Shown here piece after piece: positions 8,106 to 62,914 of a stretch of 64,000 bases of DNA. Origin of the DNA: an uncultured Hyphomicrobiales bacterium (GTDB lineage Bacteria; Pseudomonadota; Alphaproteobacteria; Rhizobiales; Devosiaceae); NCBI GenBank assembly GCA_903828145.1, contig CAIKKY010000007.1, positions 248,001 through 312,000 of the forward strand, in the 5' to 3' direction. The notes below the pieces were generated by a model, which saw nothing but the letters and a program-made list of their open reading frames with translations, was not told the DNA's origin and did no database searches. Made by a program: the position numbers and the translations under genes. How positions within the stretch are numbered: the stretch's first letter is position 1; each line of letters begins with the position of its first letter.

Positions 8106-8181
8106 TGGTGCCGCATGCCGGATTCGAACCAGCGACCCCCTCATTACGAATGAGATGCTCTACCGACTGAGCTAATGCGGC
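8106..8181 (-). tRNA. tRNA-Thr (anticodon CGT)
   Basis: The minus strand folds as a complete cloverleaf: acceptor stem GCCGCAT/ATGCGGC, D-arm GCTC...GAGC, an anticodon stem closing the loop TTCGTAA with anticodon CGT (reads ACG, threonine), and a T-arm GCTGG-TTCGAAT-CCGGC. The 3' CCA is encoded (ACCA at the end). No integrase or duplicated 3' end is seen nearby. Confidence 0.96.
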
Positions 8182-8254: not shown

Positions 8255-9634
8255 TCAGGCATCCGGCGCGGCAAGCGGCATGGCGGGTCTGGCGAGCGAC
8301 TCGGGCGCAGCAGGGCGCTCGGGTGCATCGAAGGGCGCCACGCGCACGGCCACGGCACTGGCCGGAACCCGCCACTCGAACGCATCAAGCTTGCCGGAAA
8401 CCGGCGATACCGGCTCCCATTCCGGCGCGGTGATGCCATCGGCGGTCCAGCACGGATCGCGCGGGGCACGCTGGCTGCGGCTGCGCCAATCCTGCGCCTT
8501 GCCCACATCGCCCGATTGACCGTCTTCAATTTCCGACATCAACAGGCACACGCCCTGCGTGGGGTTCTGGCTGGAAAAGCCCAGCAGCGCCTGCCGCGCC
8601 AGCGTCCAGTCGAAGGCATCAATCGCGGCCCGCGCCAGCACCAGCGCGCTGGCGCGGTTGGGCGGCGGCAGATCGACCAGTTCCTGGATACGCCGCACGC
8701 GATCCACGGCGGAACTGCCCGGCTGCACATTGGCGAACAGCGCCGCGACATCGGGATGCGAGGTGGCGCGCCACACGCGCCGCAGCAGGCTCATGGCTTT
8801 GCGCGTATCGCGGCGGTTGATGTAGATGCGGGCGGCAATCAGCGTGGCGGGCACGAAATTGGCGTCGAGCTTCAGCGCGCTGAGCGCATGCTCGAGCGCT
8901 GCATTGGGATCATGCCCTTCAGCGACGCGGGCCTGCGCGGCTTCGACCACGGCCAGCCGACGCCGCTTGCGCAGCCGATCGTCGCGCGTCAGCGTCGGGT
9001 CATCGAGCACCATGGCCTTGGCTTCGTCCCAACGCCCGGCGCGCGTCAACTCATCGAATACGGCTTCGCGCGCCCACGGGGCCTGCGCCGAGATTTCCAG
9101 CGCCTTTTGGGCAAAGCTCAGCGCCGCATCGAAGCGGCCTTGGGCGCGGGACTGGTCATAGAGGCCCGACAGCGCCGCAATCGCAGTTTTGCGGTTGGAA
9201 ATCAGCGCGCGGTAATGCTCACGCGCCGAATGCATATCGCCCACGGCCAGATCGGCACGAGCCTCAAGCAGCTGCGCCGCAGCATTTTTGGGCAGATTGT
9301 CCTGCGCCTCACGCGCCAGCAGCCGGGCCCGGTTGGCATCGCCCGATTGCAGCGCGATGAAGCCATCGGACAGCGCGGCATAGCCCAGATCCTTGCGCCG
9401 CTCGCGGGCGCGCCGGGCGAGGTAATAGGGTGCCCCGATGATGCGCTTCAGCACACCCCAGACGAAGATGAACGCCACAAGACCGAGAATCAGCAGGAAG
9501 GCCGCAACCCCCAGCCGGGGCTGCAGGCGGTAGCCGAGCATTTCCACCGTCAGCGTGCCGGGCAGGCCGATGAGCCAGGCGATACCCGCCGTCACCAGCA
9601 GGCTGACAATCAACCATTGGGCGAGACGGATCAC
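8255..9634 (-). CDS. hemY: HemY-type membrane protein with TPR-like repeats
   Basis: The 459-residue protein has two N-terminal membrane helices (about residues 5-25 and 42-65), the HemY_N signature around PYYLARRARERRKDLGYAAL, and a cytoplasmic or periplasmic helical-repeat region of TPR type with LEARADLAVGDMHSAREHYR. An alanine/proline-rich tail ends the protein. This is the alphaproteobacterial 'HemY' associated with haem genes, distinct from the oxygen-dependent protoporphyrinogen oxidase of the same name; its biochemical role is not established. Its ATG overlaps the stop of the mitofilin-like gene by four bases, making it the last gene of the hemC-hemD-mitofilin-hemY operon. Confidence 0.88.
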   Translation of the reverse strand: MIRLAQWLIVSLLVTAGIAWLIGLPGTLTVEMLGYRLQPRLGVAAFLLILGLVAFIFVWGVLKRIIGAPYYLARRARERRKDLGYAALSDGFIALQSGDANRARLLAREAQDNLPKNAAAQLLEARADLAVGDMHSAREHYRALISNRKTAIAALSGLYDQSRAQGRFDAALSFAQKALEISAQAPWAREAVFDELTRAGRWDEAKAMVLDDPTLTRDDRLRKRRRLAVVEAAQARVAEGHDPNAALEHALSALKLDANFVPATLIAARIYINRRDTRKAMSLLRRVWRATSHPDVAALFANVQPGSSAVDRVRRIQELVDLPPPNRASALVLARAAIDAFDWTLARQALLGFSSQNPTQGVCLLMSEIEDGQSGDVGKAQDWRSRSQRAPRDPCWTADGITAPEWEPVSPVSGKLDAFEWRVPASAVAVRVAPFDAPERPAAPESLARPAMPLAAPDA

Positions 9635-43894: not shown

Positions 43895-43910
43895 TGATTC
43901 CCGTGAAACA
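43895..43910. promoter_or_regulatory. parS-like site 1
   Basis: TGATTCCCGTGAAACA matches the parS consensus TGTTTCACGTGAAACA in 14 of 16 positions. It lies between the convergent stops of holA and parB, close to the gene for the protein that would bind it. Confidence 0.6.
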
Positions 43911-43912
43911 AT

Positions 43913-44782
43913 TCACGTCGTGCCGGTCAGCCGCCGCGCGATATCATCGAGTTGCTCGAGCGATTTGTAGCGGATTTCCAGCCGCCCGCCCTCGCCCTTG
44001 TGGTCGATGGATACACTGAGGCCCAAGGCATCAGACAGGCGCTTTTCGAGCGCCGCCGTGTCCGCCAGCTTGGGCTGAACTGTCCTGCCAGCCGAAGATG
44101 ATTTGTCCGTTCGGCGTTGCGACAGCGCCTCAGCATCCCGCACCGACAATCCCTCGGTGATGATCTGCCGCGCGAGGGCCAGCGGGTCGTCAACAGTGAT
44201 CAACGTGCGCGCATGCCCGGCGGTCAGGTCGCCGCGCGACAGCATGTCCCGCACATCACCCGGCAGCTTCAACAGCCGCAGAGTGTTTGCAACATGCGAC
44301 CGACTCTTGCCGATGACATCAGCAAGGTCTTGCTGCGTATAGGAAAATTGCTCAATCAGCTGGCTGTAACCGGCCGCTTCTTCCAGCACGTTCAGGTCAA
44401 CGCGCTGCACGTTTTCGATGATGGCAAGCTCAAGCGCTTCCTTATCATCCACGTCGCGGATGATCACCGGCACTTCGGTCAAGCCGGCCTTCTGCGAGGC
44501 GCGCCATCGGCGCTCGCCAGCAATGATTTCGAACTGGTTGGGGTCGCGCGTCGGCCGCACAAGCAGCGGCGACATCACACCCTTCTCGCGGATGGAGTTC
44601 GCCAACTCATCGAGTTGCTCAACCGCAAATTCGCGGCGCGGGTTGGCGCGGTTCGGAATCAGAAAATCAACCGGCAAGCGGCGGACGCCGCTCGATTCGG
44701 CCATACGGGGGCCTTCGAGTGTGCCCATTTCACCAATCAGGGCGGCCAGGCCGCGACCAAGGCGGGATCGTTCTGAGTTCAT
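43913..44782 (-). CDS. parB: Chromosome-partitioning protein ParB
   Basis: The 289-residue protein binds parS, spreads along DNA as a CTP-dependent clamp and drives origin segregation. It has the conserved ParB/Srx region IIAGERRWRASQKAGLTEVPV, the spreading arginine-rich NPRREFAVEQLDELANSI, a helix-turn-helix (YTQQDLADVIGKSRSHVANTLR, DMLSRGDLTAGHARTL) and a C-terminal dimerisation part. I start at the ATG at 44782, two codons downstream of another ATG. parA precedes it after one base or overlaps slightly. Confidence 0.96.
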   Translation of the reverse strand: MNSERSRLGRGLAALIGEMGTLEGPRMAESSGVRRLPVDFLIPNRANPRREFAVEQLDELANSIREKGVMSPLLVRPTRDPNQFEIIAGERRWRASQKAGLTEVPVIIRDVDDKEALELAIIENVQRVDLNVLEEAAGYSQLIEQFSYTQQDLADVIGKSRSHVANTLRLLKLPGDVRDMLSRGDLTAGHARTLITVDDPLALARQIITEGLSVRDAEALSQRRTDKSSSAGRTVQPKLADTAALEKRLSDALGLSVSIDHKGEGGRLEIRYKSLEQLDDIARRLTGTT

Positions 44783-44789
44783 GCTCACC

Positions 44790-45605
44790 TCACGCCGCCG
44801 CCAATTGCCGCTCGCGGCGGATCACTTCCGTCGCCAAACGCAGATAGGCCTGGCTGCCCGCGCATTTCAGATCATACAGCAGCGCCGGCTTGCCATAAGA
44901 CGGCGCTTCCGACAGCCGCACATTACGCGGAATGACAGTATCATAGACCAGATTGCCCATTTCATGGCGGACATCGGCCAGAACCTGCGCGGACAGGTTG
45001 TTCCGGCCGTCATACATCGTCATGACCACGCCCTGAATCGACAGGCGTGCATTGAGGGTTGAGCGGATCTGCTCAATGGTTTTCAGCAGTTGGCTCAGGC
45101 CTTCCAGCGCGAAAAATTCGCACTGGAGCGGCACCAGCACCGCGTCAGCGGCGACCAGAGCGTTGATCGTCAACAGATTAAGCGAGGGCGGACAATCCAC
45201 CAGCACATAGGTCACGGGTTCGTCGTCAATGCGCAGCAGATCAAGGCCCCGGAAGGCGTCACGCAGCCGATAGGCGCGGTCGCCGTGCTGGGCAATGGTC
45301 AACTCTACGCCGAGAAGATCGAGCGTTGAGGGCACAAGCGCCACGTGCGGCACACTGGTCATGATTGCGGCCTGATCGATGGTGGCCTCGCCCACCAGCA
45401 GCTCATAGCTGGACACGCCGCGGTCTGCCCGCATGATGCCAAGTCCGGTCGAGGCGTTGCCCTGGGGATCAAGGTCAACAATCAGCACGCGTTCGCCAAT
45501 AGCCGCAAGGGCTGTCGCGAGATTGATTGCTGTTGTGGTTTTACCGACGCCACCCTTCTGGTTGGCGAGGGTCAGGATACGAGGAGCCAAGTCGCGTCCT
45601 CCCAT
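44790..45605 (-). CDS. parA: Chromosome-partitioning ATPase ParA
   Basis: The 271-residue deviant-Walker ATPase starts its fold with RILTLANQKGGVGKTTTAIN, has DLDPQGNASTGLGI, and VLVDCPPSLNLLTINAL with the Walker B aspartate. It moves ParB-parS complexes. The ATG at 45605 is possible, but a TTG at 45590 has the better GGGAGG ribosome site and gives a shorter N-terminus. It follows rsmG by eight bases in the rsmG-parA-parB unit. Confidence 0.95.
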   Translation of the reverse strand: MGGRDLAPRILTLANQKGGVGKTTTAINLATALAAIGERVLIVDLDPQGNASTGLGIMRADRGVSSYELLVGEATIDQAAIMTSVPHVALVPSTLDLLGVELTIAQHGDRAYRLRDAFRGLDLLRIDDEPVTYVLVDCPPSLNLLTINALVAADAVLVPLQCEFFALEGLSQLLKTIEQIRSTLNARLSIQGVVMTMYDGRNNLSAQVLADVRHEMGNLVYDTVIPRNVRLSEAPSYGKPALLYDLKCAGSQAYLRLATEVIRRERQLAAA

Positions 45606-45613
45606 AAGGGCCG

Positions 45614-46252
45614 CTAAGGAGTATTGACGCTCCGCAGAGAGGAAATCTGCACGATGGCGCCGCTCAAATCCGTTGAGCTTGGGTTAACTACCACGTCAAA
45701 CGCCCACGCTGAACGGCTTTCCGCCAGCTCTTTGAGATGTTCACCGCCTTTATGAAACAGCCCCAGTGTTTCCGGGCCAAAGAAGCGTTCCGAAAGCTGA
45801 AACAGATGATCGAGGCTGGCGAGAGCCCGCGAAGTGATCACATCAGGTGTTTCACGTGAATCGGCACTCTCGATGCGCCCCGCTATCACCGTAGCGGGAA
45901 GCTCAAGCTCGCGAATCACCGTGCGGAGAAACGAGACTTTTTTCTGGATCGGCTCTACGAGCGTAATGCTGCGGTCTCCACCCTTGAACGCGATGGCCAA
46001 GGGGATGGCGGGCAGGCCGCCACCGCTCCCGAGATCAAGAATGCGCTGGGCTTTCCCCGGAATCAGGGGGAGAAGCTGAAGTGAATCAAGGATATGACGG
46101 TTCCACAGCATCCCCTCTGTTTCACGTGAAACCAGATTGGTCACTTTGTTCCACTTCAACAGCAGGCTGACATAGCTGCGCAAGTCCCGTTCGATCTCGG
46201 ATATGGGCCGGGCGCAAAAAGGGGCGAAGCGGTCGAGTGCGGTGTCAGGCAC
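45614..46252 (-). CDS. rsmG: 16S rRNA m7G527 methyltransferase RsmG (GidB)
   Basis: The 212-residue methyltransferase modifies G527 in 16S rRNA, where loss gives low-level streptomycin resistance. It has [12 protein letters not shown], the SAM fold [17 protein letters not shown], and [14 protein letters not shown]. It starts with GTG and overlaps the end of mnmG by eight bases. Two parS matches lie within the gene. Confidence 0.96.
45848..45863. promoter_or_regulatory. parS-like site 2 (inside rsmG)
   Basis: TGTTTCACGTGAATCG matches the parS consensus in 14 of 16 positions, including the full central TGTTTCACGTGAA. It is encoded within the rsmG reading frame. Confidence 0.65.
46118..46133. 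promoter_or_regulatory. parS site 3 (inside rsmG)
   Basis: TGTTTCACGTGAAACC matches the parS consensus in 15 of 16 positions and is, with site 4, one of the two best sites in the window. It lies in rsmG, within the cluster around parAB. Confidence 0.85.
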
Positions 46253-48123: not shown

Positions 48124-48139
48124 TGTTTCACGTGAATCA
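48124..48139. promoter_or_regulatory. parS site 4 (between mnmE and mnmG)
   Basis: TGTTTCACGTGAATCA matches the parS consensus in 15 of 16 positions. It fills the 36-base gap between mnmE and mnmG, the only site of the cluster that is non-coding apart from site 1. Confidence 0.8.
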
Positions 48140-51289: not shown

Positions 51290-52324
51290 TCAGCTCTCCC
51301 GGATGACGCGGAGCAGGCGCTCTACGTGGTCGATCGGTGTCTGGGGCACAATGCCGTGCCCGAGATTGAAGATATGCGGCCGGTCGCGGAAGGCAGCAAT
51401 GATGTCGCAAACCCGGGCGTCCATCTGGTCGCCGCCGGCCAGAAGCCGCAGCGGATCGAGATTGCCCTGGACCCCGAGTGTCTTCGGCAGTGATTGCGCA
51501 AAAGCAAGCGGCACCGCGTAATCGAGCCCGATGACATTAACCCCGGTTGCCGCGGCATAGGCCGGCAGATTACCCGCCGCACCGCGCGGAAACCCGATAA
51601 TTGGCGCGTTGGGAACGCGCTTTCGCAGCGCTTCAACGATCCGTCTGTTCGGCCCAATCACATACTCGCTGAACGCAACTTCATCGAGATTGAGGGCCCA
51701 GCTTTCAAACAGCTGCACCACATCAGCGCCAGCCCTAAATTGCGCTTCGAGGTAATCGACGCTGACATCGACCAGCATATCGATCAGCGATTTGAACGCT
51801 GCTGGTTCAGTCAGCGCGAAAATCCGCGCGGCCGCCTGATCAGCGCTGCCATGGCCGCCAATCATGTAGGTGGCAACGGTCCAGGGCGATCCGCAAAAGC
51901 CGATCAGTGTCGTCTCCGGTCTGATCGCCGCGCGAATGCGGCGCACCGATTCGAAAACCGGGCTCAGCTTTTCCAAAGCCTTCTCCGGTTTCAGCGCGGC
52001 CAGGGTTTGGTGTGTCACCGGATCGAGCACGGGACCTTCGCCCGTCTCAAACCGAACGGATTGGCCCATCGCGTCGGGAACAACGAGAATGTCGGAAAAC
52101 AGGATCGCTGCGTCGAGGTCAAAGCGCCGCAAGGGCTGCAACGTCACTTCTGTCGCGAGCTCTGGGGTGTAGCAAAGCTCGAGGAAATTCGTGGTTTTAG
52201 CCCGCACGGCGCGGTATTCCGGCAGATAGCGGCCGGCCTGCCGCATGATCCACACCGGCAGTCGCGATGTTGGTTTGCCCAATACCGCGTCCAGCAGAAC
52301 TTTCGGGACGGGAGCGGTGGTCAT
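51290..52324 (-). CDS. hemE: Uroporphyrinogen decarboxylase HemE
   Basis: HemE converts uroporphyrinogen III to coproporphyrinogen III. The 344-residue protein has PVWIMRQAGRYLPEYRAVR, LFSDILVVPDAMGQSVRFE with the catalytic aspartate, GFCGSPWTVATYMIGGHGS and the PRGAAGNLPAYA region. In Caulobacter and several relatives hemE borders the chromosomal replication origin, and the gap behind its start has DnaA-box-like sites here too. Confidence 0.97.
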   Translation of the reverse strand: MTTAPVPKVLLDAVLGKPTSRLPVWIMRQAGRYLPEYRAVRAKTTNFLELCYTPELATEVTLQPLRRFDLDAAILFSDILVVPDAMGQSVRFETGEGPVLDPVTHQTLAALKPEKALEKLSPVFESVRRIRAAIRPETTLIGFCGSPWTVATYMIGGHGSADQAAARIFALTEPAAFKSLIDMLVDVSVDYLEAQFRAGADVVQLFESWALNLDEVAFSEYVIGPNRRIVEALRKRVPNAPIIGFPRGAAGNLPAYAAATGVNVIGLDYAVPLAFAQSLPKTLGVQGNLDPLRLLAGGDQMDARVCDIIAAFRDRPHIFNLGHGIVPQTPIDHVERLLRVIRES

Positions 52325-52396
52325 CGGGTCTTGTCTAAGAAAGAGGAAAGACTCTGTATCTTTATTATCATAGCGGTGGTTTGCCGGAATTCATGG

Positions 52397-52405
52397 ATTT
52401 CCACA
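52397..52405 (+). promoter_or_regulatory. DnaA-box-like site (one mismatch)
   Basis: ATTTCCACA differs from the relaxed DnaA box TTWTNCACA only at the first base. It is closest to the AT-rich tract of the putative origin. Confidence 0.45.
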
Positions 52406-52452
52406 ACGGCAAATCACCTTGCCCGACGCGACACGCGGTCTCGGGGCTGGGG

Positions 52453-52461
52453 TGTGGATAG
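52453..52461 (-). promoter_or_regulatory. DnaA-box-like site (one mismatch)
   Basis: TGTGGATAG reads CTATCCACA on the minus strand, one base away from the consensus TTATCCACA. Confidence 0.5.
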
Positions 52462-52500
52462 CCGCTGTGCTGAAAGGGGACGACCGGCTGAAGCGGCCCG

Positions 52501-52515
52501 TTAACCGGCTGTTTA
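52501..52515 (+). promoter_or_regulatory. CtrA-like binding site in the putative origin
   Basis: TTAACCGGCTGTTTA has the TTAA-N7-TTAA form with one mismatch in the second half. CtrA represses replication at Caulobacter origins, so the location is suggestive. A further GTTAAC occurs at about 52623. Confidence 0.45.
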
Positions 52516-52540
52516 CCATAGGCGCAGAAAGGCACAGGCG

Positions 52541-52549
52541 TGTGGATAA
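52541..52549 (-). promoter_or_regulatory. Exact DnaA box
   Basis: TGTGGATAA reads TTATCCACA on the minus strand, a perfect match to the high-affinity DnaA box. It lies 26 bases after the CtrA-like site. Confidence 0.75.
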
Positions 52550-52715
52550 GACACCGCCGGACCTAGAGGTTGTCCCCGCTCTTTGCCCTCTCGTCGTAAA
52601 TTCCGTCCCCAGCGGTGAACCTGTTAACGGTTTGACCCCTCAGTGGGCATAAGTCGGTGTTTCGCAAACAGGCCGGTGTTTTGCACCGGCTTCCACCTTG
52701 AGACATCAAGGACAG

Positions 52716-52724
52716 TGTGGAAAA
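52716..52724 (-). promoter_or_regulatory. DnaA-box-like site just before maf
   Basis: TGTGGAAAA reads TTTTCCACA on the minus strand, which fits TTWTNCACA. It lies eight bases before the maf start codon and could also affect maf expression. Confidence 0.5.
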
Positions 52725-52732
52725 CCAAAGCC

Positions 52733-53338
52733 ATGCTGATCCTTGCGTCACAGAGTGCTGCACGAAACGCCCTGCTCCACGGGGCCGGTGTGCGATTCGA
52801 AGCGCGTCCAGCCCAAATCGACGAGCGGGCGCTTGAACGTTCTGGCCTGGGGAAAGTTCCACCTGGTCTCGCCGTTGCGCAGTCCCTCGCTCTTGCCAAG
52901 GCTAAAGCCGTGTCCGCCGCTGAGTCGGGGGCCCTGGTCATTGGTTGCGATCAGACCCTGACGCTCGATGATCGGTTGTTTCATAAGCCAGACTCCATGG
53001 CAGAAGTGCGCGCGCAGCTTCTCGCTTTGCGCGGGCGCACGCACCGACTGACCTCAGCCATCAGTCTCGTGCGCGACGGACGTGAGATCTGGGCTGGTTT
53101 TGAGACCGCAGACCTGACTCTGCGCACATTCAGCGAAGCGGAGCTTGATTGGGTCATCCACATTGAAGGCCGGTCCTTGCTGGCATGCGTGGGTGCGTAC
53201 CGGCTCGAAGGCGCATCAATCTGCCTTTTCGAGCGGATCGAGGGCGACTATTTCAACATTTTAGGGCTGCCGTTATTGCCGCTGCTCGCGGCCCTGCGCC
53301 AACATGCGCCCGAAACGCTGGAGTCCGCTGCGCCATGA
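52733..53338 (+). CDS. maf: Maf-family nucleoside triphosphate pyrophosphatase
   Basis: The 201-residue protein cleaves non-canonical or modified nucleotides. It starts LILASQSAARNALLHGAG, with FEARPAQIDERALE, GCDQTLTLDDRLFHKP and the C-terminal LEGASICLFERIEGDYFNILGLP. The ATG at 52733 marks the start; an upstream open extension covers the putative origin. The GCDQ motif resembles the YceF-type subgroup more than the YhdE-type, but this is uncertain. Confidence 0.92.
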   Translation: MLILASQSAARNALLHGAGVRFEARPAQIDERALERSGLGKVPPGLAVAQSLALAKAKAVSAAESGALVIGCDQTLTLDDRLFHKPDSMAEVRAQLLALRGRTHRLTSAISLVRDGREIWAGFETADLTLRTFSEAELDWVIHIEGRSLLACVGAYRLEGASICLFERIEGDYFNILGLPLLPLLAALRQHAPETLESAAP

Positions 53339-54156: not shown

Positions 54157-54743
54157 TGTTCGCCTTGGGCCTCACAGGATCGATCGCCACCGGAAAGTCC
54201 ACCGCCCTCAAGGTCTTTGCCGATCTCGGTATCCCCGTGTTTTCCGCCGATGATGCCGTACACGCGCTCTATCGTGGCGCTGCCGTCGCCCCCATCGCGG
54301 CGCTCTTTCCCGGTGTTGCCAAAAATGGCGAGATTGATCGCGCCGCGCTGAGCCGCCAGCTGGTTGCTGACCCGACGCAGCTCAAGGCGCTGGAAAAAAT
54401 CGTGCATCCACTGGTCCGCGCACAGATCGATGCCTTCCTCGAAGATGCCCGCCAGCGCGGCGTGCCACTAGCGGTGGTGGATATTCCGCTGCTTTATGAG
54501 CGCAACATCGATTGGGGCTTCGACGCCGTGCTCGTCACGACCGTTGATTCCGCTGAACAGGCCCGTCGCGCGCTGGCGCGTCCCGGCATGAGTGTGGATA
54601 AGCTCCACGCCATCCTTGCCCGGCAAATGCCGCAATCGGAAAAGATCGCGCGGGCCGATTATGTGCTCGATACCGCCCAGCCGACAGCCGCCAATCGCGC
54701 GGCGCTTGAAGCGCTGGTCGCCAAACTGACGGGGCGTTCATGA
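54156..54743 (+). CDS. coaE: Dephospho-CoA kinase
   Basis: CoaE phosphorylates dephospho-CoA in the last step of coenzyme A synthesis. The 195-residue protein has the Walker A LTGSIATGKSTALKVF, DADDAVH-type VFSADDAVHALY, and the lid region VVDIPLLYERN with R of the LARPGMS segment. It starts one base before the aroE stop ends and overlaps dnaQ by four bases. Confidence 0.95.
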   Translation: MFALGLTGSIATGKSTALKVFADLGIPVFSADDAVHALYRGAAVAPIAALFPGVAKNGEIDRAALSRQLVADPTQLKALEKIVHPLVRAQIDAFLEDARQRGVPLAVVDIPLLYERNIDWGFDAVLVTTVDSAEQARRALARPGMSVDKLHAILARQMPQSEKIARADYVLDTAQPTAANRAALEALVAKLTGRS

Positions 54744-62183: not shown

Positions 62184-62914
62184 GACTCTATCCCGCCATT
62201 GATCTCAAAGACGGCCAGTGCGTTCGGCTGAAGCTGGGCGATATGAACGCCGCCACGGTGTTCAACACCAACCCGGCCGCCCAGGCGCTGGAGTTCCAAA
62301 CTCAGGGCTTCGATTACCTGCATGTGGTCGATCTCAATGGTGCCTTTGCAGGCGAAAGCGTCAATACCGCAGCGGTTGAGGCGATCCTCAGGGCCGTGCA
62401 TATGCCTGTGCAACTGGGCGGCGGCATCCGGACGCTTGCCCATATTGAGGCCTGGCTCACCCGCGGCCTCGCCCGCGTGATCCTCGGTACGGTGGCTGTG
62501 CGCGACCCCGCGCTGGTGCGTGAAGCGGCGCGGCGGTTCCCCGGCAAGGTTGCCGTCGGAATCGACGCCCGGGGCGGCAAGGTGGCCGTCGAAGGCTGGG
62601 CCGAAACATCGGAACTGTCCGCCATCGAACTCGCCCAACGCTTTGAAGGCGCTGGCGTGGCGGCAATTATCTATACCGATATCGATCGCGACGGCATCCT
62701 CACCGGCATCAACTGGCCTTCGACGCTTGACCTCGCGAAAGCCGTTTCCATCCCGGTGATCGCGTCGGGTGGGCTAGCGTCAATGGCCGATATCCGCACC
62801 ATGACCGAGCCCGACTACGCCCTGCTCGACGGGGCGATTTCGGGCCGGGCGCTCTACGATGGCCGGGTTGATTCACGTGAAGCACTGGCGCTGCTCAGGG
62901 GGATCGCGGCATGA
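62171..62914 (+). CDS. hisA: Phosphoribosylformimino-5-aminoimidazole carboxamide ribotide isomerase HisA
   Basis: The 247-residue TIM-barrel isomerase opens [19 protein letters not shown], has [34 protein letters not shown] and [14 protein letters not shown]. The ATG at 62171 is inside hisH; a GTG three codons later is also plausible. It overlaps the next small gene by four bases. Confidence 0.96.
62869..62884. promoter_or_regulatory. parS-like sequence inside hisA (outlier)
   Basis: TGATTCACGTGAAGCA matches parS in 14 of 16 positions. It lies in hisA, about 10 kb from the putative origin on the opposite side to the main cluster. It may be chance. Confidence 0.35.

Follow-up and report, generated by a model that had tools for sequence, protein, structure and literature searches.

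In Caulobacter the replication origin is known to lie beside hemE, and the same location has been suggested for further Alphaproteobacteria (PMC1914354); both hemE and maf are used as indicator genes by an origin finder (PMC3794950). The origin of Caulobacter crescentus, Cori, has hemE on one side, an AT-rich tract, weak DnaA boxes, CtrA sites of the form TTAA-N7-TTAA and parS within about 10 kb (PMC1914354, PMC4468827). The gap between hemE and maf that is described here resembles Cori in all of these features, the CtrA sites being those of the gaps of its family, the Devosiaceae. It differs from Cori in three ways: the Devosiaceae appear to lack the COG1806 border and have maf instead, the species studied lacks an exact CtrA site but has an exact DnaA box, and its matches to the IHF pattern all carry one mismatch.

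The origin of Hyphomonas neptunium is also near hemE, with parAB about 7 kb away, an unclear skew and CtrA (PMC6650430, PMC7200025), which binds beside the origin (PMC7200025). The order is different, however, and that origin was measured by marker frequency and ChIP-seq, whereas the one described here is predicted from sequence. Sinorhizobium meliloti belongs to the same order as the Devosiaceae, and its chromosomal origin is on the hemE side. This origin is reported to lack both CtrA motifs and CtrA binding (PMC4433202), in contrast to the exact motifs seen in 37 of 39 Devosiaceae gaps. The predicted oriC of Sphingopyxis granuli is likewise near hemE, and in it DnaA boxes are conserved and an unwinding element has been proposed (PMC4741004). 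According to a 2015 review, CtrA sites at origins had not been seen beyond the caulobacters, Rickettsia possibly excepted (PMC4468827); the binding of CtrA beside the H. neptunium origin was shown later (PMC7200025). A title-level search covering few subscription journals found no earlier report of a CtrA set in Hyphomicrobiales origins, and among the literature matches listed no paper had a Devosia replication origin in its title.

The best explanation for the gap is that it is the oriC of the chromosome, of the canonical alphaproteobacterial hemE-side type, with a probability of about 0.92. This reading is based on its rank in DnaA-box density, its low-GC tract, its parS neighbourhood and the conservation of its motifs in orthologous gaps.

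The gap between hemE and maf

The window is the whole stretch of DNA analysed, 64,000 nucleotides long (bases 248001-312000 of the 457-kb contig C7), from a 2.95-Mb assembly of 32 contigs. The nearest named relatives by hemE are mostly Devosia, plus Pelagibacterium, and on that basis the organism is taken to be one of the Devosiaceae, within Hyphomicrobiales. The minus-strand gene order is parB, parA, gidB, mnmG, mnmE, rho, a UPF0093 gene and hemE, followed by the gap; mnmG and mnmE are what we take these two genes to be from reading their translations. To the right of the gap, maf, aroE, coaE and dnaQ lie on the plus strand. A preliminary description had placed a putative origin here, with hemE and maf-aroE-coaE-dnaQ facing away from the gap. 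That arrangement was confirmed, hemE and maf by Pfam, and the origin itself is supported by the parS cluster, parAB, the conserved motifs and the published hemE-side origins. The motifs named in the description, an exact DnaA box, three looser boxes, a CtrA-like TTAA-N7-TTTA, an AT-rich tract and a GANTC site, were all recovered (Table 1).

Table 1. Coordinates of the features in and around the gap (positions in the window)
Feature	Position	Strand	Evidence or remark
putative oriC, intergenic gap	52325..52732 (408 bp)	.	DnaA-box density, surrounding parS cluster, motifs kept in orthologous gaps
hemE	51290..52324	-	PF01208 (URO-D)
maf	52733..53338	+	PF02545
parB	43913..44788	-	ParB_N, HTH_ParB, ParB_C domains
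parA	44790..45605	-	AAA_31/CbiA; adjoins parB
parS-like, 2 mismatches	43895..43910	.	palindrome scan
parS-like, 2 mismatches	45848..45863	.	palindrome scan
parS-like, 1 mismatch	46118..46133	.	palindrome scan
parS-like, 1 mismatch	48124..48139	.	palindrome scan
parS-like, 2 mismatches	62869..62884	.	palindrome scan
AT-rich tract adjoining hemE, putative unwinding element	52331..52400	.	lowest-GC 60-mers
GANTC (CcrM-type) site	52350..52354	.	pattern match
family-conserved block, consensus TATTATCATGGCGGTGTTTTGC..AATTC	52363..52392	.	alignment of 36 gaps
weak DnaA box, 2 mismatches	52397-52405	+	CCACAA after AATTC in 35/39 gaps
DnaA box, 1 mismatch	52453-52461	-	mismatch scan
CtrA-type TTAA-N7-TTTA, 1 mismatch	52501..52515	.	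177 bp from hemE
exact DnaA box TTATCCACA	52541-52549	-	word match
TTATGCCCA	52644-52652		1 mismatch vs TTATNCACA
DnaA box, 1 mismatch, adjoining maf	52716-52724	-	TGTGGAAAA near maf (or right end) in 34/39 gaps

The GC content of the gap is 0.556, compared with 0.630 for the window, so its AT content is above background. Within the AT-rich tract the 60-mers from 52331 and 52341 tie with the one from 29291 for the lowest GC, 0.383, among 6394 sampled in the window. The single GANTC per 408 bp is unremarkable. Rfam matched the window only once, in a tRNA (8109-8181), and no structured RNA was matched in the gap.

With at most one mismatch there are 11 DnaA boxes in the window against 4.8 expected, a number reached by 2 of 100 shuffles, and three of the 11 fall inside the gap. 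When 408-bp segments were slid over 306.5 kb from the organism's own genome, roughly a tenth of its length and with 3.5 kb counted twice, the gap ranked first in DnaA-box density with 4 boxes, and the next-best segment away from it, in L082, had 3. The origin signal is the clustering of boxes and no single word. As a genome-wide marker TTATCCACA was rejected as useless alone, since it is not enriched, having 6 sites where the reversed control has 11; one of the six is a second exact copy at 54593-54601, inside coaE and 2 kb from the gap. DnaA-trios were also sought, and no strict run of them was found in the gap. An origin of this type (BUS) needs three or more adjacent trios, three being the published minimum (PMC8287927). 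Matches to the IHF pattern WATCA-N5-WTR in the gap, one of them at 52366, are all one-mismatch, and the window has 127 such matches. The family-conserved block beside hemE is perhaps a degenerate DnaA box or an IHF site.

Conservation in Devosiaceae and beyond

The family search covered 120 genomes, of which 113 matched. Loci were taken from the best 30 of the 113, the organism's own included, so the resulting set of 39 distinct gaps leans to close relatives. Duplicate gaps (L097, L103 and L118) were dropped beforehand, and an alignment of 36 gaps additionally leaves out L007, L010 and L013. In these last three loci there is no maf between hemE and aroE, and the parS-like GATTCACGTGAAAC adjoins aroE. 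The gaps measure 408-632 bp to maf, or 527-532 bp to aroE in the three maf-less loci, and their median identity is 51%. Conserved blocks are seen in the alignment near both start codons, of hemE and of maf.

The presence of DnaA boxes in orthologous gaps was a check set beforehand, and at least one box (TTATNCACA, at most one mismatch) was found in 38 of the 39. GANTC is present in all 39 and the block beside hemE, as GTG-N9/10-AATT, in 38. In the 13 gaps with long flanks, the density of DnaA boxes (TTATCCACA, at most one mismatch) exceeds that of the 289 kb of flanking DNA by a factor of 26, and the density of GANTC does so by a factor of 8. These enrichments overstate a comparison with intergenic DNA since the flanks are mostly coding. 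The hemE-adjacent block recurs in varied form, and GTGGATAGCGGGAATTA-like versions occur in other families (a scoring that is partly circular). A 17-base core element was tried as a test and kept as description only: it was matched with at most four mismatches in 14 of 79 loci and in 7 of 2000 random chunks, a scoring in which L029 has no row and which is partly circular because the element was derived from the very loci scored.

Exact TTAA-N7-TTAA is present in 37 of the 39 gaps, the exceptions being those of the window and of L112, and all 39 have it if one mismatch is allowed. No exact site was found in the 289 kb of flanks of the 13 gaps. When TTAA-Nx-TTAA was counted at spacings from 0 to 25, spacing 7 gave 51 sites in 37 gaps, the runner-up, spacing 25, gave 12, and spacings 4-6 and 8-13 gave one site combined. 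In 200 dinucleotide shuffles 0.15 exact sites were expected, with a maximum of 2; the shuffles and the spacing test are both free of the coding-flank bias. After thinning of the gaps, an exact site remained in 18 of 20 at 70% identity and in 8 of 9 at 60%. In 31 of the 39 gaps the main exact site is at a distance of 160-205 bp from hemE. The window's own gap has no exact site and a single one-mismatch site, at 177 bp, which reads as a remnant in the place that is conserved across the family. The looser pattern TTWW-N7-TTWW has one match in this gap and a single further one in the remaining 63.6 kb of the window.

Genome-wide, G078 has 23 exact sites, one of them in the hemE gap, and G020 has 26, two of them in the hemE gap and 57 bp apart. 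In the organism's own genome the gap has none, and the total of 17 hardly exceeds the 14 of the reversed control. With at most one mismatch allowed, the gap has one CtrA-type site and denser clusters are found elsewhere in the organism's own DNA, on contig C7, at 8847-9025 and 12227-12279 of L089 and at 12840-12851 of L184. These clusters are perhaps CtrA-regulated promoters.

It could be argued that the gap is the origin but that in the family some other protein, and not CtrA, binds at TTAA-N7-TTAA, or that these sites serve hemE only. Many of the Devosiaceae sites have wider GTTAAC arms, which another protein could read. This is nevertheless less likely, as the spacing matches the CtrA consensus given in the literature (PMC1914354), with 51 sites at spacing 7, and CtrA is encoded in the organism's own genome at 82% identity and, across the three genomes searched, at 82-83% identity to that of Caulobacter.

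Loci outside the family were also scored, over 412 bp at hemE. They are 64 named loci, mostly from Hyphomicrobiales with a few from Sphingomonadales; L022, L029, L057 and L059, which have no maf, were left out beforehand. Exact CtrA sites occur in 9 of the 64, compared with 37 of 39 in Devosiaceae, and exact DnaA boxes in 33 of the 64, compared with 3 of 39, differences for which the Fisher tests between families serve as description only, as they ignore shared ancestry. The nine loci with CtrA sites comprise four labelled Cohaesibacter, together with one each of Afifella, Aurantimonas and Bartonella and two metagenome bins.

At most outside loci hemE and maf are about 1.2-1.6 kb apart, with a long plus-strand ORF between them. 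The one such ORF scanned, from Mesorhizobium (L031), belongs to PF03618 (the COG1806/PpsR family), and by eye the others begin alike. COG1806/ppsR (PF03618) was undetected in all 31 Devosiaceae genomes searched (of the 120 in the family, the organism's own included), whereas the controls, E. coli, B. subtilis and Caulobacter, were positive. Since PF03618 is undetected in Devosiaceae and seen at an outside locus, the classical hemE-COG1806 border gene appears to have been lost in this family, with maf as the new border. An alternative origin border is known in Wolbachia and its relatives (PMC1914354), and COG1806 is therefore treated here as typical, and not defining, of a hemE-side oriC.

parS sites, GC skew and the dnaA locus

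The 2.95-Mb assembly contains five parS-like sites with at most two mismatches. All five are on contig C7, the farthest being 8.4 kb from the gap on its left and 10.1 kb on its right; a reversed control gave one match per strand. The parAB genes are about 7 kb from the gap. Each of the 22 one-contig family genomes scored (of 23; G009, with a broken hemE match, was omitted) has parS-like sites, with at most one mismatch, at a distance of 3-8 kb from hemE. G035 has one additional site 35 kb from hemE.

A second alternative is that the gap simply carries the divergent promoters of hemE and maf, that its motifs have transcriptional roles only and that the origin is elsewhere. The divergent layout, the conserved blocks near both start codons and the CtrA-type clusters of L089 and L184 are in keeping with this. 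However, a promoter would not be expected to have a parS cluster and parAB in its neighbourhood. In addition, the maf-less loci L010 and L013 keep both boxes and CtrA sites, and the maf-less L007 keeps CtrA sites. A promoter region without an origin is quite improbable.

The preliminary description had proposed a skew minimum near the gap as a check on the origin. GC skew was sampled in ten stretches of C7 and in the window. It is weak and, on either side of the gap, slightly negative in most stretches, with no usable minimum, and the check is uninformative and not supportive. Likewise, three one-contig relatives sampled at 20 stretches apiece gave no usable minimum, and their gene-strand bias is flat. 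The left-right difference in skew has p values of 0.03 (G078), 0.65 (G020) and 0.18 (G012), and only G078 differs. The skew of G012 is positive in 20 of 20 stretches, and single stretches of G020 reach +0.135 and -0.176. Unclear skews have been described for other members of the class. The skew inversion of Methylocystis is reported as not clear (PMC3794950). For H. neptunium it was reported that skew, dnaA and boxes gave no clear result and that marker frequency placed the origin close to hemE (PMC6650430).

The absence of dnaA from the window was also claimed correctly; the gene is on contig C10. An origin at dnaA, as in many other bacteria, is compatible with the skew and with the assembly, in which dnaA is on another contig and so unlinked to the gap, but it is hardly credible and was rejected, as the 16 kb around dnaA have four scattered boxes (at most one mismatch) and no CtrA-type site, and no parS-like site was found on the dnaA contig. 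A second, weaker Bac_DnaA-domain match, with an internal stop, is found at G000:C28:422-733 and is perhaps an HdaA-like gene or a fragment.

Proposed replication from the gap and its control

If the chromosome is replicated from this gap, DnaA, whose gene is on another contig, would bind the strong box and the several weak ones spread over the gap, and would unwind the AT-rich tract on the hemE side. Replication would be bidirectional from the gap, and the new origins would be segregated by means of the parS cluster and parAB, which lie within about 10 kb. The binding of DnaA, the unwinding and the firing at the gap are predictions from these sequence patterns. The conserved TTAA-N7-TTAA sites of the family are probably bound by CtrA, which, as at Cori, would repress firing; it probably excludes DnaA, as has been proposed for Cori (PMC4468827). 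In the window species the CtrA input at the origin is probably weaker or lost, since only the one-mismatch site is left and an exact DnaA box is present.

The position of the origin itself is as hemE-based prediction expects. The newer part is the position-conserved exact CtrA sites at these putative Hyphomicrobiales origins. A broader proposal, to which we give about even odds, is that Devosiaceae origins are directly controlled by CtrA, unlike that of Sinorhizobium. Either such control would be ancestral and would have disappeared from Rhizobiaceae- and Mesorhizobium-like lineages, or the Devosiaceae would have regained it. Exact DnaA boxes would have been traded for CtrA sites, with the window species, which has a small genome, starting the reversal.

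The Devosiaceae are ordinary environmental bacteria. From the arrangement of their hemE gaps it seems that an origin can persist after its COG1806 border is gone, and whether control of replication by CtrA was gained or lost becomes testable in this family.
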